Positions 3,320 to 42,185 of a stretch of 64,000 nt of DNA are shown here, piece by piece. The position numbers were made by a program, and so were the translations under genes. The DNA comes from Actinokineospora baliensis (GTDB taxonomy: Bacteria; Actinomycetota; Actinomycetes; Mycobacteriales; Pseudonocardiaceae), in NCBI RefSeq assembly GCF_016907695.1, contig NZ_JAFBCK010000001.1, positions 7,617,388 to 7,681,387 on the forward strand, written 5' to 3'. The notes under the pieces are model-generated. The model made no database searches and had not been told where the DNA came from. It saw only the letters and a list, made by a program, of their open reading frames with translations. The stretch's first letter is position 1; each line of letters begins with the position of its first letter.

Positions 3320-3325
3320 CGACCC

Positions 3326-3331: not shown

Positions 3332-3450
3332 ACCAGCGTGAACACCGGTCACCGAGGCAGGCGCGGCGGCACCGGGTGAGCCGTGCCACTGACCCGACCG
3401 GAGTAGGCTCACCCCCGGACGACGAGGGCGGACGAGAGGGTCGGACGAGC

Positions 3451-6468: not shown

Positions 6469-6552
6469 CCGGTGTGCCAACTCCTCGCTTCCTTGTCCTA
6501 CGACCGATGCTAGTGCGGACCGACGACAATTGCGAACAGTTCCAACGAATCC

Positions 6553-9359: not shown

Positions 9360-9637
9360 GGCGGCCTCCTGCACCTCGGATGGCCCCACGACGGTAGCGA
9401 TCTCGTTGCCCGGCTTTCGCCGCACAACCGAGCCACACTCACGACATTTCCACGACAGGGTCGGATTCCCGCTGACCGGCACTGGCCAGATGTTCACCTG
9501 ATGGTGTGGGATCGGCTGGTCAGCACGGATTCCGACGCCAGCGAGCCGATCTTGGGAGCGGAAACTGTCATACCCCGTCCGGATCCTCGGTGGTGCACGG
9601 TGACGACGAAACGTTGACGACCAAGGGGGACCACGAG

Positions 9638-12065: not shown

Positions 12066-13199
12066 TCAGCTCCGCGCCAACGTCAGCTCCGCGATCTGAA
12101 CCTGCTGGATCTCCGAGGTCCCCTCAATGATCTCCTGGATCTTCGCGTCCCGCAGATACCTCTGCACCGGATAATCCGACGAAACCCCACTAGCCCCATG
12201 CGCCTGCACCGCCGCAGCAGCCGCAGCGAACGCAGCCCGCGAAGCGAAGTACTTCGCGATCAACGTCTGGCGGATCGCGTCGCGGTGGGCCGCGGCGCGC
12301 ATCTGGCCCGTTTGGCGGCAGAGCAGGCGGGCGGCTTCCACCGAGGTGATCATCTCTGTGAGCGAGCGCTGGACCAGTTGGTGTTCGGCCAGCGGCGCGT
12401 CGAACTGGGTTCGGGTGCGGGTGTAGTCGAGGCTCGCGTCCAGGCAGCCTTGGGCCAGTCCCACCGAACCGCAGGCGGTGCTGTAGCGGCCGTAGTCCAG
12501 CGATGACGTGGCCACCAGGTCGAAGGTCAGTCTGCCGTGGCTGAGGAGGTTCGACTCGGGGACCACCACGGAGTCCAGGTGGACCTCCCCCAGTTCCGAC
12601 GCGCGCAGGCCGAGGAGGCCGGTGATCGGGGACACCGACAGGCCGGGGGAGTCCCGCTCGACGATGAAGGCGGCCGGGTCGTCGTCGAGGCGGGCGAAGA
12701 CCAGGAAGACGCCTGCGCGTTGGGCGAAGCTGATCCACTTCTTGCGGCCGGTGATCTCGTACCCGTCGAGCACCTTGCGGGCGGTGGTGGTGCCGTTTCG
12801 GGCGTCGCTGCCGACTTCGGGTTCGGTCAGGGCGAAGGAGCCGATGACCGAGCCGGTGCCGATGGCGGGGGCCCAGCGGTCGGCGAGGTCCTTGCTCCCC
12901 CACCGCAGGATGGCGTGGGCGACCATGCCCTGGACGGCGACCAGGTTCCGGACCGAGCCGCAGCCGCGACCGAGTTCTTCGCTCAGCAGGCCGTAGGTCA
13001 CCGCGTCCATGCCGGTCCCGCCCGCCTCGGTGGGCAGCGTCGGCACGAGCAGGTGCGCGGCGGCCAGGTCGGTGATGATCGAGTCGTCGAGGTGTTCCTG
13101 GTGGTCCCAGGTGCCCGCGCGCGGGATGAGGCGCTCGTCGACGAAGCGGGCGAAGGCGAGGAGGCTGTCGCGCTGGTCAGTGGTGAGACCGTGCAGCAC
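12066..13199 (-). CDS. Acyl-CoA dehydrogenase acting on carrier-bound aminoacyl group (ZmaI-like)
   Basis: About 377 aa. The GTG at 13199 has GGGG 7 nt upstream; a TTG at 13211 is an alternative. The acyl-CoA dehydrogenase family is clear from FALTEPEVGSDA, the flavin-binding GRKKWIS, FDAPLAEHQLVQ, and the catalytic glutamate in IIEGTSEIQ. In zwittermicin biosynthesis the homologous function (ZmaI) oxidises the semialdehyde formed from seryl-ACP to aminomalonyl-ACP. Here it is the last gene of an operon with the loading ligase, the ACP and the hydroxyacyl dehydrogenase. Its 5' end overlaps the ligase gene by 23 bp. The role is inferred from this four-gene context. Confidence 0.88.
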   Translation of the reverse strand: MLHGLTTDQRDSLLAFARFVDERLIPRAGTWDHQEHLDDSIITDLAAAHLLVPTLPTEAGGTGMDAVTYGLLSEELGRGCGSVRNLVAVQGMVAHAILRWGSKDLADRWAPAIGTGSVIGSFALTEPEVGSDARNGTTTARKVLDGYEITGRKKWISFAQRAGVFLVFARLDDDPAAFIVERDSPGLSVSPITGLLGLRASELGEVHLDSVVVPESNLLSHGRLTFDLVATSSLDYGRYSTACGSVGLAQGCLDASLDYTRTRTQFDAPLAEHQLVQRSLTEMITSVEAARLLCRQTGQMRAAAHRDAIRQTLIAKYFASRAAFAAAAAAVQAHGASGVSSDYPVQRYLRDAKIQEIIEGTSEIQQVQIAELTLARS

Positions 13200-14382
13200 C
13201 TGGGTCCCCAATCCGGTCGGTGACGGCGGTGGGCCAACCGGCCGGGTCGGCGCCGTGCTGGCAGAGGAAGGCGTAGGCGAGGCGCTCGAGGCCGAAGCCG
13301 ACGCAGCCGCTGGCGGTGGGGCCGCCCGCGGGCCCGGTGATGTCGAAGGACTCGCCGAAGAACTGGCCGTGCAGGTTGAACGAACCCACGGCGATGTCGC
13401 GGTCCGCGGCCACCGGGACGCGGAGCTCGAACTTCAACTCCATCATCCGCTGGGACAGGATCTTGCCCGCGGTGTCGGCGTTGCCGAAGAAGTGGTCGTT
13501 GGCCACCTCGCAGTGCCCCGCCAGCTCCAACTCCTCCAGCAGCGCGTACGCCCGCGCCATGACCGCGTTGCGGCACCCGGTCGCGAAGTCCTCCCCGCCG
13601 AGGAACACGATCTCGCGGATGGTGAAGTCCCACAACCGTTCCATGCTGGTGTGGTAGCGCGACTCGTAGCGGAAGGACTTCCCCCGCGAGGTGACGACCA
13701 TCTCCGACGGCAACCGGCGGCCGGTGTACTGGTGGTAGGTGTGGTAGCACATCGTCGGCGGCAGGCAGTAGGTCTTGTCCTCGCACTGGGCGAACAGGTC
13801 GTCCGGGAGCCGCCCGCCGTCGCGGTAGCGGTCGACGAAACCGTTGTAGACGTCGATGTCGTTGTGCAGCCGGGTGACGAACATGGCGAACTGGGGGAAC
13901 GAGCCGAAGTACCCGAACCGGTCCAGCACGCTGGTCGGCAGCAGCGTCGGGTACCGGAACTCGCGCGAGCCGGGCAACTCGAGCGCGATCGCCAGCAACC
14001 TGGCATCCAGGTAGTCCACAAGGGACAGCAGTGGTTCGCCGAAGCCCACCTGACCCTCGCCAGCGACGAAGGCGGCGTCACCGGCCAGCAATTCGGGGAA
14101 CGGGTCGACGAAGGTCGCCTCGACCGGGCAGCGCCACACCTGCTTCGGCGGCAGCGGGCGCTGGGTGAGCACTTCGGCGGCCACGACTTTCCCGATTTTC
14201 ACCGCGATGGCCGATTCCTCGGCATCACCGGAAATCACCAGGTCGACCGCGCTGATATCCCCGCCTTCGGCCACCAGGTCGAACTCGGTGATCGCACTGG
14301 AGACGAAGAACAGCCGTTTCGCCAGTTCGGGCGCCAGGTCACCGGGAACGGGTTGTGCCAACGGCACCCGCAGCGCGCGCAT
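13177..14382 (-). CDS. SerRS-like amino acid:[acyl-carrier-protein] ligase
   Basis: 401 aa. A class II aminoacyl-tRNA synthetase-like catalytic domain without a tRNA-binding part. Motif 2 is in SFRYESRYHTSMERLWDFTI and motif 3 in GCVGFGLERLAYAF. Candidate zinc ligands are the Cys of PPTMCYHTYH, the Glu of FTIREIVF and the Cys of SGCVGFG, the Cys/Glu/Cys set of methanogen-type SerRS and of the amino acid:carrier protein ligases. Those enzymes charge glycine or alanine onto a free carrier protein. Here the next gene upstream encodes such a carrier and the neighbours match aminomalonyl-ACP formation, so L-serine is my predicted substrate. ATG at 14382 overlaps the ACP stop (TGATG); a GTG one codon earlier is possible. 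Confidence 0.88.
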   Translation of the reverse strand: MRALRVPLAQPVPGDLAPELAKRLFFVSSAITEFDLVAEGGDISAVDLVISGDAEESAIAVKIGKVVAAEVLTQRPLPPKQVWRCPVEATFVDPFPELLAGDAAFVAGEGQVGFGEPLLSLVDYLDARLLAIALELPGSREFRYPTLLPTSVLDRFGYFGSFPQFAMFVTRLHNDIDVYNGFVDRYRDGGRLPDDLFAQCEDKTYCLPPTMCYHTYHQYTGRRLPSEMVVTSRGKSFRYESRYHTSMERLWDFTIREIVFLGGEDFATGCRNAVMARAYALLEELELAGHCEVANDHFFGNADTAGKILSQRMMELKFELRVPVAADRDIAVGSFNLHGQFFGESFDITGPAGGPTASGCVGFGLERLAYAFLCQHGADPAGWPTAVTDRIGDPGAARSHH

Positions 14383-14627
14383 CACACCGCGGCGAGTTTG
14401 CGGGTGACCAGTTCGTCCACCCGGTCGACGCTGCGGAAATGGTCGAACCGCAGGTCGTCCCCGGTGACCTGGACGCCGAACTCCTGCTCGACGAACACCA
14501 CCAGTTGCATCACGAACATCGACCGCACCAGGCCGCGTTCGAAGATGTCGTCGTCATCGGCGAGTTCGGTTTCGGTGATGTTGTCCAGGACGAACTCCCG
14601 GATCCTCGCCTTGCTGTCCGCGCCCAT
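14382..14627 (-). CDS. Free-standing acyl/aminoacyl carrier protein
   Basis: 81 aa, typical ACP size. It begins MGADSKARIREFVLDNI and has acidic helices. The usual DSL phosphopantetheine site appears as DIFERGLVRSMFVMQLVV, where the serine after GLVR occupies the attachment position. The start codon abuts the stop of the hydroxyacyl dehydrogenase, and the next gene overlaps its stop, so production is tightly coupled. It probably carries seryl, then formylglycyl, then aminomalonyl groups and delivers the extender to the last PKS module (ZmaH-like role in zwittermicin). Confidence 0.88.
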   Translation of the reverse strand: MGADSKARIREFVLDNITETELADDDDIFERGLVRSMFVMQLVVFVEQEFGVQVTGDDLRFDHFRSVDRVDELVTRKLAAV

Positions 14628-15512
14628 CTACCTCGCCCCTCCCGACCCGCTCGCGCCGGATCCGTAGTCGAAGAACCCCCGCCCGGTCTTGCGACCGTGC
14701 AGCCCGGCGTCGACCATGCCGGTCAGCAGCGGGCAGGGCCGGTACTTGCCGTCCTTGAACTCGTCGTAGAGCACCTCGATCGACAGCAGCACGGTGTCGA
14801 GGCCGATCAGGTCCGCGGTCTCCAGCGGGCCCATGGTGTGCCCGAAGCACTCGACGAACAGCCGGTCGATGTCGGCGGCGGTGCCCACGCCCTCGTGCAG
14901 CAGGAACACCGCCTCGTTGACCGTCAGCATCATCACCCGGTTGGTGACGAACCCCGGCGAGTCGTTGACCACCACGCTCTTCTTGCCCAGGGCCGTGATG
15001 AACCCGCGCATCCGCTCCAGCGTGTCCGCTGACGTGCGGCGACCCCGGATGACCTCGACGGTGGGCTTGAGCGGCACCGGGTTCATGAAGTGGGTGCCGA
15101 CCACGTCTTCGGGTCGCCCGGTCAACGCCCCCAACCGGGTGATCGGGATGGCCGAGGTGTTGACCCCGACCGGGGTGCCCGGGGCGAGCAGCTCGCCGAG
15201 CCGCCGGTAGATGGGCGCCTTGACCTCGAAGCGCTCGGTGGCGTTCTCCACCACCAAGTCGGCGGCAGCGAGGTCGGCGAGGTCGGTGCTGAACACCGTC
15301 CCGGCGACGACCTCGGCCGCGGTGATCGCCGAGGCGGGCGCCAGGAGCGCGTACAGCCGCACGTCATCGGCTATCGTGCGTTGTACGCTTTTCAGGATTT
15401 CCGGCTCGCGGTCGAGGAGAATGACCTGGAATCCGGCCTGGCGCAGGGCGATCGTGACGCCCCTTCCCATTACCCCCGCGCCGACGACACCCACTGTGTG
15501 AACGCTGGCCAC
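14628..15512 (-). CDS. 3-hydroxyacyl-CoA dehydrogenase family oxidoreductase (ZmaG-like)
   Basis: 294 aa from GTG at 15512 (GAGGGG upstream). The Rossmann NAD site is VGVVGAGVMGRGVTIAL. Family motifs VVENATERFEVK, GTHFMNPVPLKPTVEVI and DSPGFVTNRVM are present, and the C-terminus ends with GRKTGRGFFDYG. It is first gene of the aminomalonyl cassette. By analogy with zwittermicin ZmaG it should oxidise the serine hydroxyl on the carrier to the aldehyde. It is transcribed divergently from the PKS genes across a 451-bp gap. Confidence 0.9.
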   Translation of the reverse strand: MASVHTVGVVGAGVMGRGVTIALRQAGFQVILLDREPEILKSVQRTIADDVRLYALLAPASAITAAEVVAGTVFSTDLADLAAADLVVENATERFEVKAPIYRRLGELLAPGTPVGVNTSAIPITRLGALTGRPEDVVGTHFMNPVPLKPTVEVIRGRRTSADTLERMRGFITALGKKSVVVNDSPGFVTNRVMMLTVNEAVFLLHEGVGTAADIDRLFVECFGHTMGPLETADLIGLDTVLLSIEVLYDEFKDGKYRPCPLLTGMVDAGLHGRKTGRGFFDYGSGASGSGGAR

Positions 15513-15963
15513 TGCCGATTCGACCCCCTCGCCGCACCGCCCGCCACCAGGGCGGAAATCCGTTGAGTTGGAACTGGCTGCCACGCCAAGGTCTCGGCAC
15601 GGACCCGACACCGGTATTACCGGATTAGTCGGTCGAGTCCACTGTGCACGATCCTCTCCGCGCCGAACAACGGGCCCCATCCGGCGGCCCCTTCCCGACA
15701 CTACCCCAACGGGGCGCCCGTGCGGCAGGGGTGCGAGAGCGATCCGGTCAATCCACTCGCGAGGGAGTAGAACTGGGGGCGCGGCTGGGTATAGTCGAAA
15801 GCCGGGGCCGTTGTTCGCCACCATTGGTGCGCCCCGGGTGGACGGTGTCGACCGATGTCGCACCCACTGGATAACCCGTATGACGTTGTACGCACGCTGT
15901 TGTCGGACCGACCGCCGAGGCGTCCACGCGAGGTGTCGGGCGCATGTCGTTGGGGGCACGCAG
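15513..15963. promoter_or_regulatory. Divergent promoter region of the biosynthetic cluster
   Basis: 451 bp without a convincing gene, between the aminomalonyl cassette (minus) and the first PKS gene (plus). It contains a 13-bp perfect palindrome at 15611-15623 (CCGGTA-T-TACCGG) that could be an operator; read on the minus strand it includes TAATAC as a possible -10. For the plus strand, TATAGT at 15790-15795 is a candidate -10 with no clear -35. No cluster-specific regulator gene is adjacent. Confidence 0.45.
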
Positions 15964-18900
15964 ATGACCGAGAACGCCGCTGTGCCAGTGATCACAGTGC
16001 ACGGACTCGTGGACCGGGTGCTCACCCAGCGTTCGGCTGAATCGGTCGCGGTGGTCGAGGGCAACCGCCAAGTGAGTTACGCCGACCTCGACCGGATGGC
16101 GCAACGGGTCTCGTCCTGGTTACTGGCGACGGGTGTCGGGTCGGGTTCCTTGGTGGCACTGCACTTGCGCCGCGGTCCTGAGCTGTTCGCCGCGATGCTC
16201 GGGGTCATGCGGGTGGGCGCGTGCTACGTCCCGATGGACACCGCCGACCCGGCGGCCCGGCTGCGCGCGATCGCCGACGACGCTGCCATCACCGTGTTGA
16301 TCACCGAACCCGGCCTGGACGCGCCATTCCCCGCGCGCACCCTGCTCGTGGACGACGCGCTCATGGACAGTGTGCCGCCGGACGGTCCCAGCCGCGCGGC
16401 CACCGACGTCGACGCCCCGGTCTACACGATCTTCACCTCCGGCTCGACCGGGCGCCCCAAGGGTGTCCCGATGACACACCGGTCGCTGGTCAACCTGCTG
16501 TGGTGGCACGAACGCGAACGGCCGGGCAGCAACCAGGCGCGTACCGCGCAGGTGTGCGCGGCGAGCTTCGACTTCTCCTTCCACGAGGTGTTCTCCACGC
16601 TGTGCTTCGGCGGAACGCTCGTCGTCGCCGACGAGCAGACCCGCCGGGACCCGCACGCGCTCGCGGATTTCCTTGAACGGCAGGGAATCGAGCGGCTGTT
16701 CGCCCCGGTGTCCACGCTGACCCAGTTGGCCGAGGCCGCACGTGGGCGCACTACCGCACTGCCCGTCCGCGACGTGGTGACCACCGGGGAGCGGTTGCGC
16801 ACGACCCCGGCGCTGCGGGCGTTCTTCCAGCGCACGGACGGCGGCAGGCTGCACAACCACTACGGCGCCACGGAATTCCAGGACGCCACGACGCACACCC
16901 TCGACGGCGACCCCGCCGGGTGGCCGGACGCGGTACCGATCGGCAAGCCCATCGCCGGGGTCGAGGTGCACGTCCTCGACGACGACCTCACCCCGGTGCC
17001 CGAGGGCGAGCTCTACATCGGCGGTGTGGGTGTCGCAGGCGGCTACCTCAACCGCCCGGACCTGACCACAGAGCGCTTTCTGGACAACCCCTTCGGGGCA
17101 GGGCGGCTCTACCGCACGGGTGATATCGGCCGGATCTCCCCTGACGGAACGGTGGAACACCTGGGGCGTGCCGACGACCAGGTGAAGGTCGGCGGCGTCC
17201 GGGTCGAGCCGGGTGAGGTGGAGGCCGTCCTCGAGTCGCACGCCGACGTCCGGGAAGCGGTCGTGGTGGCTCAGCGGGTCGCCGGGCGGGAGCGGCTGGT
17301 CGCGCACGTGCTGGCCCCGAGCGCGGTCGACGGGACCTTGCCGCGGCGACTGCACCGGTACCTCTCCGACCGGCTGCCCCGGTACCTGGTCCCGGAGGCG
17401 TACGAGGTGCTCGACGCGATGCCGCGCACCGCGAGCGGTAAGACCGACCGCCGCGCCCTGCTGCCCCCGGAGGTGCTCGAGCGACTCTCCGACGATCCCG
17501 TCGTGGCCGCCCGCACGGGCACCGAACGCCTGCTCAGCGAGGTGTGGCAGGAGCTGCTGGGGCTCGACGAGGTCAGCACGACGGACAACTTCTTCGACAT
17601 CGGCGGAACCTCGCTGCACCTGGTCGCGCTGCGGGACGCGCTCGCCGAGCGGACCGGGGGCGCGTTCTCCCTGGTCGACCTGTTCAGCCATCCCACCATC
17701 AGGGGGTTGGCTGCCCACTTGGACCGGGAAGCGCCCGCGCTCGCACCGCGCGAGCGGTCCGCGGCAGGCGGGGACATCGCGATCATCGGCATGGCGGGCA
17801 GGTTTCCCGGCGCGGGCGACACAGCAGCGTTCTGGCGGGATCTGGTCGCGGGCGTGGAATCCGTGAGTGCCCTCGACGAACTCGACCAAGTGGACCCGGC
17901 TCTGCTGGACAACCCCGACTACGTGCGAGCAGCCGCGGCGCTGCCCGACATCGACCGGTTCGACGCGGCGTTCTTCGACATCAACGCCAAAGAGGCGGCC
18001 GCGATCGACCCGCAGCACCGGCTGTTCCTGGAATGCGCGTGGGAGGCCTTCGAAGACGCCGGGTACCGACCGGGCGCAGAGCACGGCGCTGTGGGGGTCT
18101 TCGCCGGGTCGAGCATGAGCACGTACCTGGTGAACAACCTCACCCGAGGCGCGAGCGGCCCCTTCATAGAGGCGGATATGGCCCAGTTCCAGGCGAAGCT
18201 GGGCAACGACCGCAACTACTTGCCGACTCGGGTCTCTTACAAGCTCGACCTGCGCGGGCCGAGCGTTGCGGTGCAGACAGCGTGCTCGACATCGTTGGTG
18301 GCGGTGCACCTCGCGTGCCAGAGCCTGCGGTCGGGCGAGAGCGACATGGCGCTCGCGGGCGGTGTTTCGGTGATTGTGCCGCAGCGCGGCGGGTACCTCT
18401 ATGAAGAGGGCATGGTCCGGTCCCGCGACGGGCATTGCCGTGCCTTTGACGCGGAGGCCGACGGGACGCTGTTCGGCAACGGGTGCGGCGTGGTGTTGCT
18501 TAAGCCGTTGGCGAAGGCTCTATCAGACGGTGACCGGGTGATCGCGGTGGTCAAGGGGTCCGCAGTCAACAACGACGGGTCGGTGAAGGTCGGGTTCACC
18601 GCGCCTAGTGTGCGGCGCCAGGCCGAGGTGGTGGCCGACGCCCTGGCCGACGCCGGGGTACCCGCCGGATCGGTCGGGTACGTGGAGGCGCACGGCACGG
18701 GGACGGCGATCGGGGATCCCATCGAGGTGGCGGCGCTGAACGCGGCGTTCCAACTCGATGGTCCACTTCCGGCGGGGAGTTGTGTGCTGGGGTCGGTGAA
18801 GACCAACATCGGGCACCTCGACGAGGCCGCCGGGATCGCCGGGCTGGTCAAGGCGGCGCTGGCGGTCGAGCACGGCACGGTGCCGCCGACAGTGCACTTC

Positions 18901-21900
18901 ACCAGGCCCAACCCGGAGATCGACTTCGCGGCGGGTCCGTTCTTCGTCTCCGCCGAGCCGACACCGTGGCCGGAGTGGGCGACGACCCGGCGGGCCGGGG
19001 TGAGTTCGTTCGGCATGGGCGGGACGAACTGCCACGTCGTGCTGGAGCAGGCGCCGCCGCAGCAAGAGGTCACCACCGCGCCAGGCCCGCACGTGCTGAC
19101 CGTGAGCGCTAAGTCCGCGCAGGCACTGCGAGAGCTCATCGCCCGGTACACCGAGCACCTCACTACGCATCCCGACCTCGCGATGTCCGATGTGTGCGCG
19201 ACGGCCGCGGCGGGCAGGCAGGTGTTCAGCCACAGGTTCGCGGCTGTGGTCTCAACAACCGCAGACGCACTGCAGGCTCTGGAGTCCTCTATAGAGGAGC
19301 CACGTCGGTCGAAGGTCGCGTTCCTGTTCAGCGGGCAGGGATCGCAGTACGCGGGTATGGGACTGGCTCTCTACGAAGAGCATCCGGTGTTCCGCGCGGC
19401 TATAGAAGAGTGCGCGGCACTTCTGTCCGGACTGTTCGACCTGCACGCGGTTCTCGCGGACGAGACGGCGATCAACGACACCGCGCACGCGCAGCCCGCG
19501 TTGTTCGCCATTGAGTACGCCTTGGCGAAGCTGTGGCTGTCATGGGGCGTGCGACCGGAGGCGCTGCTCGGTCACAGCGTGGGCGAGTTCGTTGCCGCGC
19601 ATCTGGCCGGGGTGTTCTCGTTGACCGGCGCGATCACGCTGGTGGCCCATCGGGGTCGGCTCATGCAGGCCTTGGACGAGCCGGGCCGGATGGTGTCGGT
19701 GGCCGCTGCGGAATCGGCAGTGGTCGAACTCGTCGAGCAGCACACCGAGGTAGCGATCGCGGCGGTGAACTCGCCGGGATCGACCGTGATATCAGGTCGC
19801 GCCGAACAGGTCGAGCAGGTCCAGGCGGAGCTGGAGCGTCGTGGTGTGCGGTGTAAGGAGCTCATCGTCTCGCATGCGTTCCACTCGCCTCTTATGCGAC
19901 CCATGCTGGCGGAGTTCGCGACGATCGCGGGCGGGGTGACCTATCACGAGCCAACGATTCCGGTCATCTCCAACGCGACCGGCGCTGTCGCGGGGCCGGA
20001 GATCGCGACTGCTGAGTACTGGGTCGACCACGTGCTCAACACGGTCCGGTTCGGTGATGGTGTCCGCACTCTCATCGAGTCTGGCGTAGACGTGTTCATA
20101 GAGGTGTCACCTCGACCTACGCTGCTGTCCCACATAGAGGCTGATGCCCTGCTTGTGCCATCGCTCCGACAGGGCCAAGGGGCAGAGCAGTTGCTGCGCG
20201 GCGCAAGAGATCTGTTCGCGGCTGGGGTCGATATCGACCTTGCAGCGCTCTATGAGCGCAAGGGGCACCACAAGGTTGCGTTGCCTACGTACCCGTGGCA
20301 GCGGGAGCGGCACTGGATCGACGCGCCAACCACGCACCAACCCACAGCTGGCGGTCCTCTCATCGGTCAGCGCTTGGACATCGCCGACAGCGATGACATC
20401 CGGTTCCAGGCCACGCTCGGTCCGAAGACACTGTCGTGGTTGGGTGACCACCGGGTGTTCCAGTCGATTGTCATGCCCGGCGTGGCGTTCCTGGAGACCG
20501 CTCTGGCCGCCCACCACGAGGCGTTCGGCGGTGCGGGCGCGGTGGTGCGCGACTTCTTCGTGCACCGCGCGATGAGCTTCGCCGACGCGGGTGCCCTGCG
20601 CGAGGTGCAGATCGCACTGCTACCTGACGGTCTGCGGATCCACTCGCGTGTTCCCGGCGATCGCCAGTGGACGTTGCACGCCTCCGGCGCGACCGGTTCA
20701 CCTGACTCACCGCTGGCTGCGGAGCCTCTCGCTGCGTTGCGCGAGCGGTTCACCAACGAGGTCCCGGTCGAGGAGATCTACCAGGGTGAGCGGGAACGGG
20801 AAATCGACCTGGGTGAGCTGTTCTGGGCGACCGAACGGCTGTGGCGGGACGGCACCGCCTGCCTGTCGGAGATAGCGCTGCCAGCCGCTCTGCGCGGCGA
20901 GACCAAGCACCGAATCCATCCGGTGCTGCTAGAGGCCTGTTTCCTCGCTCTTACAGTCACCTACCCAGAGAAGTACGGCAGGCGCACCTATGTGCCGGTG
21001 GGTGTCGAGAAGTTGACTCTGCACGCCAAGGTCGGCACTCACGCTTGGTGTCACGCCCGGCTTCGGCCTAGTGACAGCGAAACCCCGGAGACCTTGCACG
21101 GCGACGTAGACCTCTTCGACGCCGATGGCTCTCTAGTGCTCACCATGGAGGGCATCCTCCTGAAACTGGCCACTAGGCAAGCGATGCTCGGCACAGAGGC
21201 CTGGCGTGACTGGCTCTACACCACGCAGTGGGAGGAGGCGCCCGCAGCAAAAGTGTCAACCGACCGACCGCTGGTGGTGACAGGGGGCGCCTTCGCCCAC
21301 CTCGGCGATGCCGCTAAGAGCGCAACCCCGGGGCGGGCGGTCCTCTATTGCCTTCCGGCCGAGTCTTCGAGCACCGACGCAGCAGAGCTCGCCACTCCCC
21401 TGCTCGACGTCGTCCGCGACTTGGCGGACAGCGGTTCGAAGCTCGTCGTAGTCACCCGTGGCGCGCAACCCGCTGGGACTCGAGCTGTGGCCAGCCCAGC
21501 CCAAACGGCTCTATGGGGGCTAGGCAGAGTTATCGCGCTGGAGCACCCAGACCTCGGCCTCACCTTGATCGACCTCGACGAGTCCACCCCGGCCTCTGTC
21601 GTGCTCGATGAGCTGTCGAGCGATGAGCCGCAGGTCGCCTACGAGAACGGCACTCGCTATGTCGCCCGCCTGAGCCGCGAGACCGCGCCCGGGACAGGTC
21701 CTACCCTCAGTCCGGATGGGATGTACCTCATCACCGGCGGCCTAGGTGGTCTTGGCCTGGAGACCGCTCGGCTGCTGCACCGCCAAGGCGCCAGGCACCT
21801 CGTGCTGGTCAGCCGTTCGGCACCTGGTCCAGACGCCGAGAAGGTCATCGCCGAGCTGCGAGCCGCAGGCACCGAGGTCCGCACCGCGGCCGTTGATGTC

Positions 21901-22782
21901 TCCGACGAGACGGCCCTCAAGGAGCTCCTGGACGGCCTCAGCGATCTCCGAGGTGTGTTCCACCTGGCCGGGGTACTCGACGACGGTGTGCTCGCCCAGC
22001 AGACCCCCGAACGGTTCCGGACCGTTCTGGGTGCCAAAGCGGACGCGGCCTGGCACCTGCACCGGTTGACCGACAACCTGGACCTCTTCGTCCTGTTCTC
22101 CTCGATCAGCTCGGCGCTGGGCTCGCCCGGCCAGGGCAACTACGCCACCGCAAACGCTTTCCTGGACGGCTTGGCCGAGTACCGACGCGGACTTGGGCTA
22201 CCCGCGCTGGCTGTGCAGTGGGGTTCGTGGGCCGAGACCGGCATGAGCGCCCGCGCGGGCTTGAACGACAAGCTGACCTCCCTTGGCGAAGGTGTCATCC
22301 CGACCGAGGAAGGTGTGGCGGCACTGGCATCCCTGCTCGGAACCAATGGCGTGCGAGCAGTACTACCGATCGACTGGCAGCGGTTCTTGAAGCACCAGCT
22401 CACTGTGCCGCCGGTTCTGTCGCGGTTCCAGACCAAGAACGACGACAACACGTTCCGCGATCGCCTAGAGGCCGCGCCACAGGAGCAGCGACGTGACCTG
22501 CTGGCAGCGGAGGTACGCGAGCAGGTCGTCCGCAGCATCGGTACCGACAACGGCCTAGGGCCGGATGTGGGCTTCTTCTCGCTAGGGCTGGACTCACTCA
22601 GCTCGATCGAACTGCGCAATCGCCTCCAGACAGCGCTAGGGCAGCGCCTGGGGCAGACGGTCGTCTTCGACCACCCGACGCTGTCGAGCCTGACCGACCA
22701 CCTTGTCTCTGAGCTGGGCCTGACCGACACCGACGACGTTGCCCGGCTCTTGGCGGCCAAGCTCGGACTGGGGGTCTTATGA
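15964..22782 (+). CDS. Hybrid NRPS-PKS loading protein: A-PCP-KS-AT-DH-KR-ACP
   Basis: 2272 aa. Adenylation domain (about 1-510) with TIFTSGSTGRPKG, RLYRTGDIG and the C-terminal lysine of RTASGKTD; carrier domain with phosphopantetheine Ser 550 (DIGGTSLHL). The KS has active Cys 774 in QTACSTS and the later EAHGTG and KTNIGH histidines. The AT has GHSVG (Ser 1205) and HAFH near 1304, a malonyl-type signature. The DH (about 1490-1660) is unusual: HRVFQSIVMP has Gln where the motif glycine belongs, and the second motif HPVLLEACF has Glu for Asp. The KR has TGGLGGLG, LDD and the catalytic Tyr of GNYATANAF; ACP Ser is in GLDSL. Start at 15964 follows TTGGGGG; open frame upstream lacks similarity. 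Residue 53 and the last residue are TTA codons. The A-domain pocket does not match common codes; guanidinoacetate or glycine is my guess from pathway logic. The stop overlaps the next PKS start. Confidence 0.93.
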   Translation: MTENAAVPVITVHGLVDRVLTQRSAESVAVVEGNRQVSYADLDRMAQRVSSWLLATGVGSGSLVALHLRRGPELFAAMLGVMRVGACYVPMDTADPAARLRAIADDAAITVLITEPGLDAPFPARTLLVDDALMDSVPPDGPSRAATDVDAPVYTIFTSGSTGRPKGVPMTHRSLVNLLWWHERERPGSNQARTAQVCAASFDFSFHEVFSTLCFGGTLVVADEQTRRDPHALADFLERQGIERLFAPVSTLTQLAEAARGRTTALPVRDVVTTGERLRTTPALRAFFQRTDGGRLHNHYGATEFQDATTHTLDGDPAGWPDAVPIGKPIAGVEVHVLDDDLTPVPEGELYIGGVGVAGGYLNRPDLTTERFLDNPFGAGRLYRTGDIGRISPDGTVEHLGRADDQVKVGGVRVEPGEVEAVLESHADVREAVVVAQRVAGRERLVAHVLAPSAVDGTLPRRLHRYLSDRLPRYLVPEAYEVLDAMPRTASGKTDRRALLPPEVLERLSDDPVVAARTGTERLLSEVWQELLGLDEVSTTDNFFDIGGTSLHLVALRDALAERTGGAFSLVDLFSHPTIRGLAAHLDREAPALAPRERSAAGGDIAIIGMAGRFPGAGDTAAFWRDLVAGVESVSALDELDQVDPALLDNPDYVRAAAALPDIDRFDAAFFDINAKEAAAIDPQHRLFLECAWEAFEDAGYRPGAEHGAVGVFAGSSMSTYLVNNLTRGASGPFIEADMAQFQAKLGNDRNYLPTRVSYKLDLRGPSVAVQTACSTSLVAVHLACQSLRSGESDMALAGGVSVIVPQRGGYLYEEGMVRSRDGHCRAFDAEADGTLFGNGCGVVLLKPLAKALSDGDRVIAVVKGSAVNNDGSVKVGFTAPSVRRQAEVVADALADAGVPAGSVGYVEAHGTGTAIGDPIEVAALNAAFQLDGPLPAGSCVLGSVKTNIGHLDEAAGIAGLVKAALAVEHGTVPPTVHFTRPNPEIDFAAGPFFVSAEPTPWPEWATTRRAGVSSFGMGGTNCHVVLEQAPPQQEVTTAPGPHVLTVSAKSAQALRELIARYTEHLTTHPDLAMSDVCATAAAGRQVFSHRFAAVVSTTADALQALESSIEEPRRSKVAFLFSGQGSQYAGMGLALYEEHPVFRAAIEECAALLSGLFDLHAVLADETAINDTAHAQPALFAIEYALAKLWLSWGVRPEALLGHSVGEFVAAHLAGVFSLTGAITLVAHRGRLMQALDEPGRMVSVAAAESAVVELVEQHTEVAIAAVNSPGSTVISGRAEQVEQVQAELERRGVRCKELIVSHAFHSPLMRPMLAEFATIAGGVTYHEPTIPVISNATGAVAGPEIATAEYWVDHVLNTVRFGDGVRTLIESGVDVFIEVSPRPTLLSHIEADALLVPSLRQGQGAEQLLRGARDLFAAGVDIDLAALYERKGHHKVALPTYPWQRERHWIDAPTTHQPTAGGPLIGQRLDIADSDDIRFQATLGPKTLSWLGDHRVFQSIVMPGVAFLETALAAHHEAFGGAGAVVRDFFVHRAMSFADAGALREVQIALLPDGLRIHSRVPGDRQWTLHASGATGSPDSPLAAEPLAALRERFTNEVPVEEIYQGEREREIDLGELFWATERLWRDGTACLSEIALPAALRGETKHRIHPVLLEACFLALTVTYPEKYGRRTYVPVGVEKLTLHAKVGTHAWCHARLRPSDSETPETLHGDVDLFDADGSLVLTMEGILLKLATRQAMLGTEAWRDWLYTTQWEEAPAAKVSTDRPLVVTGGAFAHLGDAAKSATPGRAVLYCLPAESSSTDAAELATPLLDVVRDLADSGSKLVVVTRGAQPAGTRAVASPAQTALWGLGRVIALEHPDLGLTLIDLDESTPASVVLDELSSDEPQVAYENGTRYVARLSRETAPGTGPTLSPDGMYLITGGLGGLGLETARLLHRQGARHLVLVSRSAPGPDAEKVIAELRAAGTEVRTAAVDVSDETALKELLDGLSDLRGVFHLAGVLDDGVLAQQTPERFRTVLGAKADAAWHLHRLTDNLDLFVLFSSISSALGSPGQGNYATANAFLDGLAEYRRGLGLPALAVQWGSWAETGMSARAGLNDKLTSLGEGVIPTEEGVAALASLLGTNGVRAVLPIDWQRFLKHQLTVPPVLSRFQTKNDDNTFRDRLEAAPQEQRRDLLAAEVREQVVRSIGTDNGLGPDVGFFSLGLDSLSSIELRNRLQTALGQRLGQTVVFDHPTLSSLTDHLVSELGLTDTDDVARLLAAKLGLGVL

Positions 22783-25700
22783 ACAGCCCCAACTACGACG
22801 CACTGCTGCGTAAGGCGCTGGCGCGAATAGAGCACCTGGAGTCCGAGCTCCAAGCGGCGAAGGTGACCGCCCCGGAGCCGGTGGCGGTGGTCGGGATCGG
22901 CTGCCGCTTCCCCGGCGCGGAGGGCCCGGCGGAGTTCTGGCGGCTGTTGGTCGAGGGTCGGGACGCGATCACCGAGGTGCCGCCGGATCGATGGGACATC
23001 AACGCCTACTACGACCCAGACCCGGACAAACCTGGTCGGATGAGTACCCGGTACGGCGGGTTCGTGCCCAACCCGGCCGGGTTCGACACCGCGGCTTTCG
23101 GGATCTCCGCCCGTGAGGCCGCCAGCATCGACCCACAGCAACGGATGCTGCTTGAGGTCACCTGGCGCGCGTTCGAGCACGCGGGGATGCCGGTGAAGGA
23201 CCTACCAGAGCGCACTGGCGTCTATGTAGGCATCAGCAATGTCGACTACCGCGAGGCGATGGTCCTCCATGGTGAAGACAACATCGACGGCTACTTCAGC
23301 TCCGGTAGCACGACCAGCACAGCTAGCGGGCGCCTCTCGTACTTTCTCGGCCTAACGGGTCCGTCGCTGTCTATAGACACCGCGTGCTCCTCGTCTGCGG
23401 TCGCGCTGCACCTCGCGGTACGCGACCTGCGGGCGGGCACGTGCGATGTGGCCGTGGCCGGTGGGGTCAACCAGATCCTCACCCCACACGAGACCATCAG
23501 CCTGTCCAAGGCCCGGATGATGGCCCCTGACGGCCGTTGCAAGCCGTTCTCCGCTGCGGCGAACGGCTATGTGCGGGCCGAGGGCTGCGGCATGGTTGTT
23601 CTTAAGAGGCTGTCGGACGCCGAACGCGACGGGGACAACATCCTCGCGGTGGTGCTGGGCAGCGCGACCAACCAAGACGGCAGGCGTAGCGGTCTAACCG
23701 TTCCGCACGGCCCCTCCCAACAGGCCGTCATCCGGGAGGCGCTGCGCGACGCGGGTGTCTCGCCTATAGAGGTCGGCTACATAGAAACCCACGGCACGGG
23801 TACTGCCCTGGGAGACCCGATCGAGGCTGGAGCACTGGGCGCTGTCTTCGGAGAGCGGGAGCGCCCTCTCGTGCTGGGGGCGGTGAAGTCGAACCTGGGT
23901 CACTTGGAGTCCGCAGCGGGCATCGCGGGTGTGATCAAGGCCGTGCTGTCCGTCCAGCACGGCCTGGTCCCGCCGAACCTGCACTTCGACGAGCCCAGCG
24001 AGTTCGTGGACTGGTCACTCCCTCTGCGGGTGCCGACGGCCGCCGAGGAGTGGCCGCAGGGTCGCCGGGTGGCAGGGGTCAGCTCGTTCGGCTTCAGCGG
24101 CTCCAACTGCCACATCGTGCTGGCGGGCGGGGAGACGGCCCCCATGCCTGCCAACACAAACCGGTCGGCCGCGGTGGTGACCGTGTCGGCAGCCTCGGAG
24201 TCCGCCTTGCGGGCCGCTCAGCGGCAGCTGGCCGAGCACGCCACGATCGGGTCTGCCTACACGGCCAACACCGCGCGCAGCCACTTCGAGCACCGGGCGG
24301 CGGTGGTCGTGACTTCGGACGGCGAGGTGACGATCAAGACCGGTCGCGCTGGTCAGACCCCGCCGAAGGTCGCGTTCGTGTTCACCGGGCAGGGCGCGCA
24401 GCACCCGAGGATGGGCGGGTGGTTGATGCGCGGCAGCACGGTCTTCGGCGACATCATCCGCGAGTGCGACGAGGTCGTCCGGCCCCTGCTCGGCCGCGGT
24501 CTCACCGAACTGCTCGACGGCGAGGTCAGCGAAGAGGAACTCGCCCGCACCGAATACGCCCAGCCCGCGCTGTTCGCCTACGAGTACGCCCTCGCCCGGA
24601 TGTGGTCCTCGTGGGGCGTGCGCCCGACGGCGTTGCTCGGCCACAGCGTAGGTGAGTTGGTCGCTGCTTGCGTCGCCGGGATGTTCTCGCTGGAAGACGC
24701 GCTCCGCCTGGTCGTCGCCAGGGGACGGCTGATGCAGGCCCTGCCCGAGGGCGGCCGGATGGTGTCGCTGCGCGGCACCCGTGAGGTGATCGAGGCGGCC
24801 ATCGCCGAGTACCCGCTGGTGAGCGTCGCGGCGGTGAACGGGCCCCAGGAGATCGTCATCTCCGGGGACGGGGTGCAGGTGGGCGGTGCCGTCGAACGCT
24901 TGGCCGAGCACGGGGTGACCGGACGTGACCTGCGTGTCTCCCACGCTTTCCACTCCCCGCTGATGCGGCCGATCGTGGACGAGTTCACCGAAGTGTTGCG
25001 CGGCATCACCTTCTCTGCCCCGAAGGTCCCGCTGGTGTCCAATGTGACCGGTCAGCCGATCACCTCGACGGGCCCGGACTACTGGGTGCGGCACGCGCTG
25101 GAACCGGTGTTGTTCGCCGACGGTGTGCGAGCACTGGCCGACAACCACGTGTTCCTGGAGATCGGCCCACAACCGGTGCTGTCGGCTCTCGGCCACGGCC
25201 TGCTACCCGAACGCGCGTGGCTGCCGAGTGCACGCCGAACGCGCGAATGGGAGGAGCCCGCCACGGCCCTGGCCGAGCTCTACGTCCGCGGCCACCCCAT
25301 CGACTGGGCCGCCTACCACGAGTCCCCACAGCAGCGGATCGACCTGCCCGGCTACCCGTTCCAGCGCGAGCGGCACTGGTTCGCACCTGAATCCACTTCG
25401 GACAACCAGTGGCTCCACCGGGTCACCTGGGAGCAAGCCAATCCACAGCCCCCTGTGGATACTGTGGACAACGTCCGCTTCGAACCGGAACCCGCCACCG
25501 GTGATCCCGCCACGCACGCCCACCGTCTCGCGACCGACCTCCTGGCAATGGTCCAGGACATCGTCGCTCGCTCCGAGCCGCCTCGACTGCACGTGGTCAC
25601 TCGGCACGCACACGCACTGAGTCCACAAGAGACAACAGATCCTTCGCACACCGCTGTCTGGGGCCTTCTCCACACCATCGCCGCGGAGTACCCCGAACTA

Positions 25701-26900: not shown

Positions 26901-26915
26901 GGGAGGAACGCCGAG

Positions 26916-38263
<11,348 letters not shown>

Positions 38264-38267
<4 letters not shown>

Positions 38268-39289
38268 GCCAAGCCGTGGACAACCACACCGCGTTCACCC
38301 GGGTCCCGGTGATCGACATCGGCGCGCTGGTCACCCCCGACCCCGACCCGGCCGCGCTGCGCCGGGTGGTGGACGAGATCGGGGCCGCCTGCCGCGACAT
38401 CGGGTTCTTCTACGTCGCCGACCACGGCGTCGACGCCGCCGACAGCGCCGAGATGTTCGCCGCGGCCAAGGCGTTCTTCGACCTCCCGCTGGCCGCGAAG
38501 ATGAAGATCCGCCTCGGCGGCACGACCGACCAGTTCCGCGGCTTCGTGCCGCTGGGCGGCGAGGTCACCGCAGGCAAGACCGACTGGCACGAATGCCTTG
38601 ACCTGCAACCGAAGTGGGGCCGCGACGCCACCAGCGCCGCCACTGTGCGGGCGGTGCGCGACCAGCACCCGCTCGACGACCCCGAGCAGTGGCCCGCCGA
38701 GCTGCCGTGGTTCCGGACGGTGATGATGCGCTCCTGGGACCAGATGTGGGCGTTGAGCGCGCGCATCGCCGCCGGGATGGCGCTGAGCCTCGGCCTCGAC
38801 GAGCACTTCTTCGCCCGGTTCGAGGGCGCCGAGCTCAGCGACCTGCGGATGGTGCACTACCCGCCGTTCAGCCAGGAGGCGCACCCGCACGCACCCGACG
38901 GGTTCACCATCGACCAGACCGAACTGGGCTTCGGCGCGCACGTGGACTACGGGTTCCTCGCCGTGTTGCAACAGGACGGTGTCGGCGGGCTGGAGGTCCG
39001 CAACGCGCGCGGCGAGTGGATCGCGGCACCGCACATCCCCGGCACGTTCCTGGTCAACATCGGGTTGATGATGCAGCGCTGGACCAACGACCGCTACCAG
39101 GCGACCTGGCACCGGGTGCAGATCCCGGGTACCAGCGACCGCTACTCCATCCCGTTCTTCTTCGAACCGCGCTTCGACGCCGTGGTCGCCCCCCTGCCGC
39201 AGTGCGTCGACGCGGACAACCCCCCGCGCTACGAACCCTGCGAGTTCGGCCCTTATGTGGTCAACCTCTTCGCAAAGGCCTACGACTAA
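38264..39289 (+). CDS. 2-oxoglutarate/Fe(II)-dependent oxygenase
   Basis: 341 aa, isopenicillin N synthase-like double-stranded beta-helix family. The iron triad is His 226 and Asp 228 (GAHVDYG) with His 283 (ATWHRVQ); the oxoglutarate-binding Arg 293 and Ser sit in DRYSIPFF. The N-terminus VPVIDIGAL and IGFFYVADHGV are typical. The segment GGEVTAGKTDWHE resembles the equivalent region of the bacterial ethylene-forming enzymes. ATG at 38264 overlaps the PKS stop (ATGA), so it belongs to the operon. Hydroxylation or desaturation of the chain, or oxidation of an arginine- or guanidine-derived group, are plausible; the substrate is not shown. Confidence 0.92.
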
Positions 39290-39317
39290 CCGATCCCACA
39301 CCGAAAGCAGGCGCCGC

Positions 39318-40460
39318 ATGCAGCAAGTGTCCGAAGTGGTCAACTCGTGGAACGAGTGGGACCCGCTGGAGGAGATCGTGGTCGGGTCGGCCGACGGGGC
39401 GAACTTCGAGCCGAGCGAGCCGGGCAACCGGCCGCAGATCCGCAACGCCGCGCCCGGCACGCCGTTCCCGACCGGGCCCAAGTCGGCCGAGGCCGTCGAC
39501 CGCGCCAACGAGGAGCTGGCCGGGCTGGTGTCGCTGCTGGAGTCCGAGGGCGTGCGGGTGCGCAGGCCCTCGCCGCACGACTTCGCCCAGCCGGTGCGCA
39601 CCCCCGACTTCACCTCGGCCAACCAGTACTGCGCGGTGTGCCCGCGGGACGTGATGATCACCATCGGCAACGAGATCATCGAGGCGCCGATGTCGCGGCG
39701 GGCCCGCTACTTCGAGTACCAGCCCTACCGGGACCTGGTGTACGAGTACTGGAACGCCGACCCGGCGGTGGTGTGGACGACCGCGCCGAAGCCGTCGATG
39801 GCCGACCGGATGTACCGCGAGGAGTTCTGGGACGTCCCGCTGGCCGAACGGCACGCGCGCATGCACTCCTTCGAGTTCTGCATCACCCAGGACGAGGTCG
39901 TCTTCGACGCGGCGGACATGAGCCGCTTCGGCCGCGACATCGTGGTGCAGGAGTCGATGACCACCAACCGGGCTGGCATCGCCTGGCTCAAGCGGCACCT
40001 GGAGCCCAAGGGGTTCCGGATCCGGCCGGTGCACTTCCCGCTGGACTTCTTCCCCTCGCACATCGACTGCACGTTCGTGCCGCTGCGGCCGGGCCTGGTG
40101 CTGACCAACCCGGACCGACCGCTGCGCGAGGGCGAGGAGAAGCTGTTCCTGGCCAACGACTGGGAGCTGGTCGAGGCGCCGGAACCGACCACCGGCAACG
40201 ACGACATGCCCGAGTTCTGCCAGTCGTCGAAGTGGCTGTCGATGAACGTGCTCAGCATCGGCCCCGGCAAGGTCATCTGCGAGCAGCAGGAGAAGCCGCT
40301 GCAGGAACTGCTGTACACACTGGACTTCGAGGTGTTCCCGGTCCCGTTCCGCAACGTGTTCGAGTACGGCGGGTCGCTGCACTGCGCCACCTGGGACGTG
40401 CGCCGCACCGGGGCCGGGGAGGACTACTTCCCGCACTCCGACTACCAGCCGCTGGTCTGA
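39318..40460 (+). CDS. L-arginine:glycine amidinotransferase family protein
   Basis: 380 aa from ATG at 39318. It transfers the amidino group of arginine to an amine. By alignment with human AGAT the catalytic triad is kept: Asp 197 (VFDAADMSRF), His 248 (FPSHIDCTF) and Cys 356 (GSLHCATWDVRR). Conserved SSKWLSMNVL is present. Within the cluster it is the obvious source of a guanidine. With glycine it would make guanidinoacetate, which I propose as the starter for the loading adenylation domain; amidination of the finished vicinal diamine is the alternative. It lies 28 bp after the oxygenase and 15 bp before the carbamoyltransferase gene. Confidence 0.94.
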   Translation: MQQVSEVVNSWNEWDPLEEIVVGSADGANFEPSEPGNRPQIRNAAPGTPFPTGPKSAEAVDRANEELAGLVSLLESEGVRVRRPSPHDFAQPVRTPDFTSANQYCAVCPRDVMITIGNEIIEAPMSRRARYFEYQPYRDLVYEYWNADPAVVWTTAPKPSMADRMYREEFWDVPLAERHARMHSFEFCITQDEVVFDAADMSRFGRDIVVQESMTTNRAGIAWLKRHLEPKGFRIRPVHFPLDFFPSHIDCTFVPLRPGLVLTNPDRPLREGEEKLFLANDWELVEAPEPTTGNDDMPEFCQSSKWLSMNVLSIGPGKVICEQQEKPLQELLYTLDFEVFPVPFRNVFEYGGSLHCATWDVRRTGAGEDYFPHSDYQPLV

Positions 40461-40475
40461 GGGGAAGGGATCGCC

Positions 40476-42185
40476 ATGTACATCCTCGGGGTCAACTCGG
40501 TCTACCACGAGTCGTCGGCCTGCCTGGTCCGCGACGGGGTCGTGCTCGCCGCGGCCGAGGAGGAGCGGTTCAACCGGGTCAAGCACGGCAAGGAGGCCCG
40601 CTCGGACAACCCGGACGAGCTGCCGCGCGAGGCCATCGACTTCTGCCTGGCCACAGCGGGCATCACGCTCGCCGAGGTCGACCACGTCACGGTCGCGGCG
40701 GACCCGGACGTCATCGCCGAGGTGCTACGGCTCGGGCTGCCGTCGCCGTGGGCCGACCGGGCGGACCAGAAGCGGTTCCTGGGCAAGCTGCCCGACATCC
40801 CGCGCCGGTTCGGCGAACTCGGCTTCACCGGCGAGTTCCACTGGGTGGCCCACCACACCGCGCACGCGGCGTCGGCCTATTTCGCCTCGTCCTTCGACGA
40901 CGCCGCCGTCCTGGTGGTCGACGCCCTGGGCGACGACGCGTTCTCCACCCGCTTCTACCGCGCGCGGGGCACCACGCTCGACCACGTCCAGAGCGTCCGG
41001 TACCCGGCGTCCATCGGTTACCTGTGGGAGCTGGTGTCCGTCTACTTGGGATTCGGCGTGTACGACGCGGCGAAGGTGATGGGCCTGGCCGCCTACGGAG
41101 ACCCGACCCGCTTCGCCGCCGCTTTCGACCGCCTGGCCTGGACCACCCAGGACGGCGGCTTCGACATGGCCCACGACCTCCTGCGCTTCGCCGACATCCT
41201 CTACTACCCGCCGTCGGCGAACACCGGCGGACTGGTCGAGCTCCTCGGCGTCGAACCCCGCTCGCGCGGCGCGTCCCTCGACCAGGTGCACCAGGACGTC
41301 GCCGCTGCGTTGCAGGAGAAGACGAACGAGTTGGTGCTGCACATGACCAACCACCTGCACCAGCTCACCGGCTCGTCGCGCCTGTGCCTGGCGGGCGGCG
41401 TCGCGCTCAATTGCGTGGCGAACCAGATCGCGTTCGAGCGGTCCCCGTTCACCGAACTCTACGTGCAGCCCGCGGCCCACGACGGCGGCCTTTCGGTCGG
41501 CGCGGCATTGCACGTGTGGAACCACGTGCTGGGGCAGTCGCGGTCGCCGGAAATGCCGCACGCCTATTGGGGGCCGTCGTTCTCGGATTCGGCGATCGCG
41601 GACGAGCTTTCGCGCCACCCCGACCTCGTGGTGTCCCAGCCGGAGCACTTCGAGGCCGAGGTCGCGCGGTTGGTGGCCGGTGGCAAGGTCATCGGCCTGT
41701 TCCAGGGTGCGATGGAACTGGGTCCGCGCGCGCTGGGCAACCGCAGCATCATCGGGGACCCCCGCGAACGGGCGATGCGGGAGGTGCTCAACCACAAGGT
41801 GAAGCACCGGGAGTACTTCCGGCCGCTGGCGCCCAGCGTGCTCGCCGAGGCGGTGGACGAGTGGTTCGAGGTCGCCAAACCCACCAGCGCGGGCGACTAC
41901 ATGCTGATGGCCTACCCGGCGCGACCGGACAAGTACGCGCGGATGGGCGCGGTGCTGCACGTGGACAACACCTGCCGGATCCAGGCCGTGCACCGGGAGA
42001 CCAACCCGCGGTTCCACCGGATCATCACCGAGTTCGCGGCGCTGACCGGGGTGCCGATGGTGTTGAACACCTCGTTCAACGACCAGGAACCGATCATCTG
42101 CACCCCGGGTGACGCGCTGGCCACCTTCCGCAAGACCGAGATCGACTTCCTGGCGATCGGCCCGTTCCTGGTGCGCAAGGGCTAG
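40476..42185 (+). CDS. Carbamoyltransferase (TobZ/NovN/CmcH family)
   Basis: 569 aa. The N-terminal Kae1-like domain starts with YILGVNSVYHESSACLV and carries the iron-binding HHTAHAASAYF. The C-terminal YrdC-like domain has FQGAMELGPRALGNRSI, which binds carbamoyl phosphate and ATP. The family transfers carbamoyl from carbamoyl phosphate through carbamoyl-AMP, mostly to hydroxyls in antibiotics. In this setting it could carbamoylate the cyclic guanidine nitrogen, as required for guadinomine-type products, or the hydroxyl made by module 2. GGGGAAGGG lies upstream of the ATG. The 3' end overlaps the convergent SDR gene by 4 bp. Confidence 0.94.
   Translation: MYILGVNSVYHESSACLVRDGVVLAAAEEERFNRVKHGKEARSDNPDELPREAIDFCLATAGITLAEVDHVTVAADPDVIAEVLRLGLPSPWADRADQKRFLGKLPDIPRRFGELGFTGEFHWVAHHTAHAASAYFASSFDDAAVLVVDALGDDAFSTRFYRARGTTLDHVQSVRYPASIGYLWELVSVYLGFGVYDAAKVMGLAAYGDPTRFAAAFDRLAWTTQDGGFDMAHDLLRFADILYYPPSANTGGLVELLGVEPRSRGASLDQVHQDVAAALQEKTNELVLHMTNHLHQLTGSSRLCLAGGVALNCVANQIAFERSPFTELYVQPAAHDGGLSVGAALHVWNHVLGQSRSPEMPHAYWGPSFSDSAIADELSRHPDLVVSQPEHFEAEVARLVAGGKVIGLFQGAMELGPRALGNRSIIGDPRERAMREVLNHKVKHREYFRPLAPSVLAEAVDEWFEVAKPTSAGDYMLMAYPARPDKYARMGAVLHVDNTCRIQAVHRETNPRFHRIITEFAALTGVPMVLNTSFNDQEPIICTPGDALATFRKTEIDFLAIGPFLVRKG

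Follow-up and report, generated by a model that had tools for sequence, protein, structure and literature searches.

A guadinomine-like gene cluster family in several actinomycete genera, accompanied by predicted RNA-modification genes

Results

A polyketide cluster of Actinokineospora baliensis belongs to a guadinomine-like family

The 64,000-nucleotide stretch studied here (the window), which lies at the end of the single-contig 7.68 Mb genome of the soil actinomycete Actinokineospora baliensis, carries a polyketide synthase (PKS) gene cluster with a conserved neighbourhood of about 1.4-46.1 kb. We find that this cluster is a member of a guadinomine-like family spanning several genera, and that its product is likely a guadinomine-type cyclic guanidine diamino acid. 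As a whole, the locus is probably best explained by such a product together with RNA-modification genes that would protect the producer's translation machinery. A preliminary description of positions 12066-42185 had named an aminomalonyl-acyl carrier protein (ACP) cassette, a four-module PKS with an embedded aminotransferase, an amidinotransferase and a carbamoyltransferase; Pfam, NCBIfam and Protein Data Bank (PDB) sequence searches, on which our gene calls are based, located all of these. Its proposal of a new or variant producer was right but understated, given a family found across genera. The RNA-modification genes, together with an ATP-grasp ligase, lie at 1430-6480 and thus outside that interval.

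The assembly line is encoded by three genes:

15964-22782, plus strand: PKS1, loading A-ACP and module 1 KS-AT-DH-KR-ACP (start ATG 15964 picked by comparison with A. terrae and a stretch resembling a ribosome-binding site)
22779-26900, plus strand: PKS2, module 2 KS-AT-KR-ACP (domain search)
26916-38267, plus strand: PKS3, module 3 KS-AT-DH-ER-KR-ACP fused to module 4 KS-AT-ACP-aminotransferase-C (domain search)

Read in this order, they give a loading module and four further modules. The same domain order recurs in eight other genomes: four other Actinokineospora (the same-genus genomes include A. diospyrosa, A. terrae, A. globicatena and A. inagensis), Nocardia panacis, Streptomyces glomeratus DSM 41457, and two close genomes from one other genus of the window's order, G509 and G1318. 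The S. glomeratus cluster is split across two contigs that lack the end of module 2 and the greater part of module 3, so its agreement is partial. Chance is excluded because the PKS domain order is identical in nine genomes, in S. glomeratus as far as it is covered. Core proteins or domains are 41-95% identical to those of the window, and the arrangement of tailoring and cassette genes differs in G509 and G1318. S. glomeratus resembles the window in its cassette, the A-ACP and module 1, the start of module 2, the end of module 3 and the whole of module 4 with its aminotransferase and C domains, as well as in its 2-oxoglutarate (2OG) oxygenase, amidinotransferase, carbamoyltransferase, ABC exporter and ATP-grasp genes. 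It differs, apart from the contig break, in lacking the tRNA-guanine transglycosylase (TGT) described below and in having a second 2OG oxygenase, a second L-amino-acid-ligase-type gene and an RNA m5C-type methyltransferase.

Modules 3 and 4 form a single protein of 3783 residues in the window and two proteins in all eight relatives. Comparison of the junction with A. diospyrosa revealed a proline-rich linker where the docking ends would be. A plain frameshift is unlikely to account for the fusion, because this linker is unrelated to the docking ends that it replaces. A protein search with the C-terminus of PKS3 listed no close relatives; since the two-protein versions in Actinokineospora and S. 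glomeratus (1884-2026 residues) fall under the length limit of the search (0.55 of 3783), this is no evidence of novelty.

Several active-site features are shared by all nine clusters. The A-domain pocket, at positions that we take to be the specificity-determining ones, is near-invariant (DFHF(V/L/I)THDA), and the nine clusters therefore probably load one common starter. The AT domain of module 4 (AT4) has GHSTG and HAPH in every cluster; none of the 25 other AT domains has this combination, and these carry HAFH or NAFH. The YGK motif of the aminotransferase and an intact HHxxxDG in the terminal condensation domain are likewise present in 9/9.

The extender-unit cassette ties the family to guadinomine

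Upstream of PKS1 lie four genes on the opposite strand:

12066-13211, minus strand: acyl-CoA dehydrogenase of an aminomalonyl-ACP-type cassette (PF00441, PF02770, PF02771)
13177-14385, minus strand: SerRS-like amino-acid (seryl):ACP ligase (PRK07080 153 bits, cut-off 357; PDB 3mey 124 bits)
14382-14627, minus strand: discrete acyl carrier protein (NCBIfam ACP families, weak and under their cut-offs)
about 14628-15536 (start approximate), minus strand: 3-hydroxyacyl-CoA dehydrogenase of the cassette (PF02737, PF00725)

In a protein search with the ligase, the top-scoring match outside Actinokineospora was 'Seryl tRNA synthetase, Streptomyces sp. K01-0509' (P0129) at 70% identity. By score, only the window's own protein and three from Actinokineospora rank above it, and P0132 from Kitasatospora shares 98.7% identity with P0129. 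Streptomyces sp. K01-0509 is the guadinomine producer (PMC6963908, PMC9740592). At gene level, the window thus combines two features of the guadinomine (gdn) family: a putative aminomalonyl-ACP cassette with a SerRS-like seryl-ACP ligase, and an amidinotransferase and carbamoyltransferase that would serve a carbamoylated cyclic guanidine. The 2012 JACS paper on gdn reportedly describes aminomalonyl-ACP enzymes, a PKS, and cyclic guanidine and carbamoyl genes. Our comparison with gdn is of the ligase alone; on our reading of domain logic, the PKS domain order would fit the guadinomine chain. Searches for the K01-0509-type cluster did not recover the cluster itself, with the lower matches left unexamined: in 394 Streptomycetaceae there was S. 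glomeratus (81%) and otherwise seven matches at 46-52%, and in 390 genomes of the window's family there were 16 at 42-53%.

ZmaJ, which zwittermicin biosynthesis employs, is an adenylation enzyme that acts as a seryl-AMP synthetase; the window has a SerRS-like ligase. The two systems are alike in having a discrete ACP and dehydrogenases for a serine-derived aminomalonyl-ACP (PMC6395733).

A predicted route to a cyclic guanidine diamino acid

Three tailoring genes follow the PKS, an exporter lies beyond them, and a ligase gene stands on the far side of the cassette:

38264-39289, plus strand: 2OG/Fe(II) oxygenase (PF14226, PF03171; PDB 9ovh 209 bits)
about 39318-40460, plus strand: arginine:glycine-type amidinotransferase (PDB human AGAT 274 bits, SxtG 239)
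40476-42185, plus strand: carbamoyltransferase (PF16861 221 bits, PF02543 161 bits)
43490-46093, plus strand: ABC exporter of three genes (an ATPase and two ABC-2 permeases)
5137-6480, minus strand: ATP-grasp ligase, L-amino-acid-ligase-like (PF13535; top PDB match L-amino acid ligase BL00235, 54 bits)

The amidinotransferase keeps a GGSLHC motif in 9/9 clusters; its Pfam match, at 17 bits, is under the cut-off. From the observed gene content and domain order we infer each chemical step as follows. The amidinotransferase would transfer the amidino group of arginine onto glycine or a similar amine, and the resulting guanidino acid would be activated by the A-ACP loading module. Module 1 would extend and dehydrate the chain, whereupon addition of the guanidine to the double bond would give a five-membered cyclic guanidine; the DH domain of module 1 (DH1) is suggested to be the dehydratase/cyclase that closes this ring. 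Module 2 would then leave a hydroxyl and module 3 a saturated unit. Module 4 would add the aminomalonyl unit, and its aminotransferase would convert the 3-keto group so that a 2,3-diamino acid is formed. The oxygenase and the carbamoyltransferase would tailor the product, the terminal C domain would release the chain onto an amine (either an amino acid or a dipeptide that the ATP-grasp ligase would supply), and the ABC pumps would export it.

The interpretation given in the preliminary description is partly supported. Its guadinomine-type assignment is supported: the ligase is 70% identical to that of K01-0509, and by domain logic the order of the modules would suit a cyclic-guanidine, one-hydroxyl, 2,3-diamino acyl chain. 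Its further claim that the cluster is without the nonribosomal peptide synthetase (NRPS) that would add a peptide is incomplete and doubtful, because PKS3 ends in a C domain and most relatives have an ATP-grasp ligase gene close to the cluster, namely S. glomeratus, G509 and G1318 (51-52%) and the four other Actinokineospora (80-91%). No full NRPS module was found in the window's cluster stretch. The C domain and the ligase are the only candidate peptide-adding parts found in the window, and they may offer a route to peptide attachment that dispenses with an A-PCP module. G509 and G1318 have an A-C-PCP NRPS protein adjoining the cluster (in G1318, L067:13866-18813). The exporter has relatives (57-81%) adjoining the clusters of S. 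glomeratus, G509 and G1318; none was found beside that of N. panacis.

Predicted RNA-modification genes flank the cluster

At the other edge of the conserved neighbourhood are genes that may set the window apart from gdn, namely a module for a TGT, 7-cyano-7-deazaguanine (preQ0) synthesis and an Rmt-like methyltransferase:

1430-2287, minus strand: Rmt/Sgm (FmrO)-like rRNA methyltransferase, immediately 3' of the TGT gene
2300-3319, minus strand: archaeosine-type TGT, 339 aa
3376-4143, plus strand: QueC, preQ0 synthase (TIGR00364 202 bits, cut-off 150)
4125-4781, plus strand: QueE, 7-carboxy-7-deazaguanine synthase (TIGR04508 355 bits, cut-off 240)
4781-5140, plus strand: QueD (TIGR03367 115 bits, cut-off 89)

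The TGT scored 228 bits against the archaeosine model TIGR00432, 76 against the queuosine-type model, 28 against DpdA and 147 against PF01702 (cut-off 26). Among PDB entries it matched 1iq8 at 155 bits and queuine-type TGTs at 60 bits or less. DSG, FDSAS and CxCxxC...H (C268, C270, C273, H289) are invariant in 7/7 sequences, so that both of what we take to be the catalytic aspartates and the presumed zinc ligands of the TGT superfamily are present throughout. Archaeosine TgtA is thus the closest family and shares these motifs; it differs in length, since 1iq8 has 582 residues and the 339-residue bacterial protein leaves no room for its C-terminal domains. A DNA-modifying enzyme of the DpdA or phage type was considered and rejected: the DpdA cut-off is 200 bits, and the top phage and plasmid matches listed are only 22-25% identical. 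PHROGs gave no match for the TGT. For the methyltransferase, Rmt is the best sequence family and the structure model aligns best with m7G1405-type enzymes (VIA-align), which makes the Rmt/Sgm m7G1405 methyltransferases its closest relatives on both counts; its substrate is putative.

The transglycosylase keeps company with the cluster

We searched for the TGT in 16 Actinokineospora genomes (E up to 1e-20) and, at E up to 1e-50, in 394 genomes of the class, 397 of the order and 160 of G509's genus; these wider samples overlap, and the window's genome is counted in those of class and order. Five of the 16 Actinokineospora genomes carry the TGT, the same five that carry the amidinotransferase and hence the cluster, and the Pfam TGT family gave nothing over its cut-off in the other 11. 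The wider samples yielded two, three and two carriers, respectively, every one with the cluster. G509 and G1318 were found through the TGT alone and both hold the full cluster, with the methyltransferase and TGT genes embedded between those for the 3-hydroxyacyl-CoA dehydrogenase and the carbamoyltransferase. N. panacis has an ordinary TGT elsewhere in its genome and a divergent one at the cluster. All eight TGT carriers met with thus have the cluster; they amount to about three independent lineages, given the closeness of G509 to G1318 and the single genus to which the five Actinokineospora belong. In three lineages of differing gene order, the pair of TGT and methyltransferase genes is kept at the cluster (the A. 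diospyrosa stretch ends inside the TGT gene, so its methyltransferase could not show). In their common part the TGT and core trees are congruent, with one TGT split supported at only 0.414. The core tree groups S. glomeratus with N. panacis (0.986), a grouping that the amidinotransferase tree alone does not give (0.676); given G509 and G1318 as the outer branch, S. glomeratus would accordingly have lost the TGT.

Because these lineage-specific RNA-modifying genes keep company with the cluster, we infer a protective role from their observed conservation and co-occurrence: the genes for the TGT, QueC, QueE, QueD and the Rmt-like methyltransferase would be cluster genes, whose products modify tRNA or 16S rRNA in the producer for its self-protection. 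That the TGT-less S. glomeratus has an RNA m5C-type methyltransferase instead counts in favour, as does the best match of the methyltransferase model to m7G1405-type enzymes. We put this role forward tentatively, at somewhat less than even odds.

Weighing the readings

A number of observations weigh against a guadinomine-type product combined with protective RNA modification. On the side of the chemistry, AT4 has DGR and so fails the hydrophobic RXR signature that has been proposed for AT domains using ACP-linked extenders (PMC4207774). DH1 keeps its histidine and has glutamate for the usual aspartate in 9/9 clusters, and its usual glycine is glutamine in seven and arginine in two (G509 and G1318); dehydration by this domain may be abnormal. 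No ATP-grasp match was found in the 70 kb region of N. panacis. On the side of RNA modification, the TGT falls under the curated cut-off of TIGR00432 (350 bits), the methyltransferase scores 75 bits against a cut-off of 250 for the Rmt 16S rRNA G1405-N7 family (NF000466), and its structural matches leave residues 1-75 uncovered. Since these scores are under the curated cut-offs of the closest families, the substrates of both enzymes are putative. Guadinomines are described, in the accounts cited, as having no antimicrobial activity or as not suppressing growth (PMC6963908, PMC9740592), a poor fit with a ribosomal target. Finally, S. glomeratus keeps the cluster and has no TGT anywhere in its genome, and QueC scoring at least 125 bits is also present in 7 of the 11 Actinokineospora genomes that have no cluster.

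The last two observations would be expected if the TGT, QueC/E/D and methyltransferase genes were a separate RNA- or DNA-modification island lying beside the PKS cluster by accident, and bacterial 7-deazaguanine islands such as dpd do exist (PMC11888242). We regard such an island as unlikely: the TGT-methyltransferase pair follows the cluster through its different gene orders and is embedded among its genes in G509 and G1318, no cluster-free TGT carrier turned up in the genus, class, order or G509-genus samples, and the DpdA model gives its low score here.

The travelling of preQ0 and TGT genes with the cluster in eight genomes would also suit a biosynthetic role, in which the final product carries a 7-deazaguanine or has one attached to it; preQ0, which QueC/E/D make, is known to lead to 7-deazapurine natural products (PMC11888242). 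This we consider distinctly improbable, given that the residues which we take to mark a nucleic-acid transglycosylase, those of the catalytic motifs and of CxCxxC...H, are conserved in the TGT, that no gene was seen for joining a deazapurine to the chain, and that the TGT-less S. glomeratus has the same assembly line in the parts covered. That the cassette supplies hydroxymalonyl-ACP, which a discrete ACP and dehydrogenases also make in zwittermicin biosynthesis (PMC6395733), and so leads to a 2-hydroxy-3-amino acid unlike guadinomine, is very improbable and we reject it because the loading enzyme is a SerRS-type amino-acid:ACP ligase, 70% identical to the K01-0509 protein, and not a glyceryl synthase.

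Further genes at the clusters

Six of the clusters, those of S. glomeratus, N. panacis, A. terrae, A. inagensis, G509 and G1318, come with a second 2OG oxygenase (42-61% to the S. glomeratus copy); none was found in the examined regions of the window's genome, A. diospyrosa or A. globicatena. The second L-amino-acid-ligase-type ATP-grasp gene of S. glomeratus is at L026:9170-10417 (plus strand). Adjoining the ATP-grasp gene of this TGT-less cluster is that for the 348-residue RNA m5C-type methyltransferase (L026:10461-11507, minus strand), which matches Pfam RsmB/F at 125 bits and, both under their cut-offs, a tRNA C49 model at 157 and RsmF at 155; its top PDB match is 3m6u, 'rRNA methylase'. 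It may be directed at tRNA or rRNA, and it occurs in this one genome, with no match of at least 35% in the other cluster regions. An isopropylmalate-synthase-like gene lies beside the cluster in G509 and in G1318, there in the same stretch as the A-C-PCP NRPS gene. Between its carbamoyltransferase and QueC genes, N. panacis has one for an amidase (L028:10310-11809, minus strand), which nothing in the other regions matches. In the window, positions 6553-9668 encode GNAT-like and other proteins of no recognised function that are common to A. diospyrosa (the GNAT-like one also to A. inagensis) and have no clear role in the cluster.

Discussion

One review calls guadinomines A and B the most potent natural inhibitors of the type III secretion system (T3SS), and their mode of action is described as not understood and their yields as low (PMC6963908, PMC9740592). 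Aurodox, which also came from a haemolysis screen with enteropathogenic Escherichia coli (EPEC), reduces expression of the T3SS and does not stop growth in liquid culture, and its analogues have been tested on EF-Tu (PMC9740592); a translation-directed compound can for this reason look like a T3SS inhibitor. It is conceivable, if rather doubtful, that guadinomine-type compounds act on the translation machinery (the 16S decoding site or tRNA) and that the family protects itself with 7-cyano-7-deazaguanine in its own tRNA or rRNA, through a dedicated archaeal-type transglycosylase together with an Rmt-like methyltransferase. Among the papers that our searches listed, judged by title and the start of the abstract and with most subscription papers outside their scope, none described a TGT/preQ0 module in a polyketide cluster or TGT-based self-resistance.

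The related clusters in actinomycete type strains are possible new sources of guadinomine-type compounds. By remaining beside the cluster in different genera, the RNA-modifying genes point towards translation as the target, which, if true, would be a lead to the target of guadinomine. A transglycosylase used for self-protection would, if that too is true, be a new principle of resistance.

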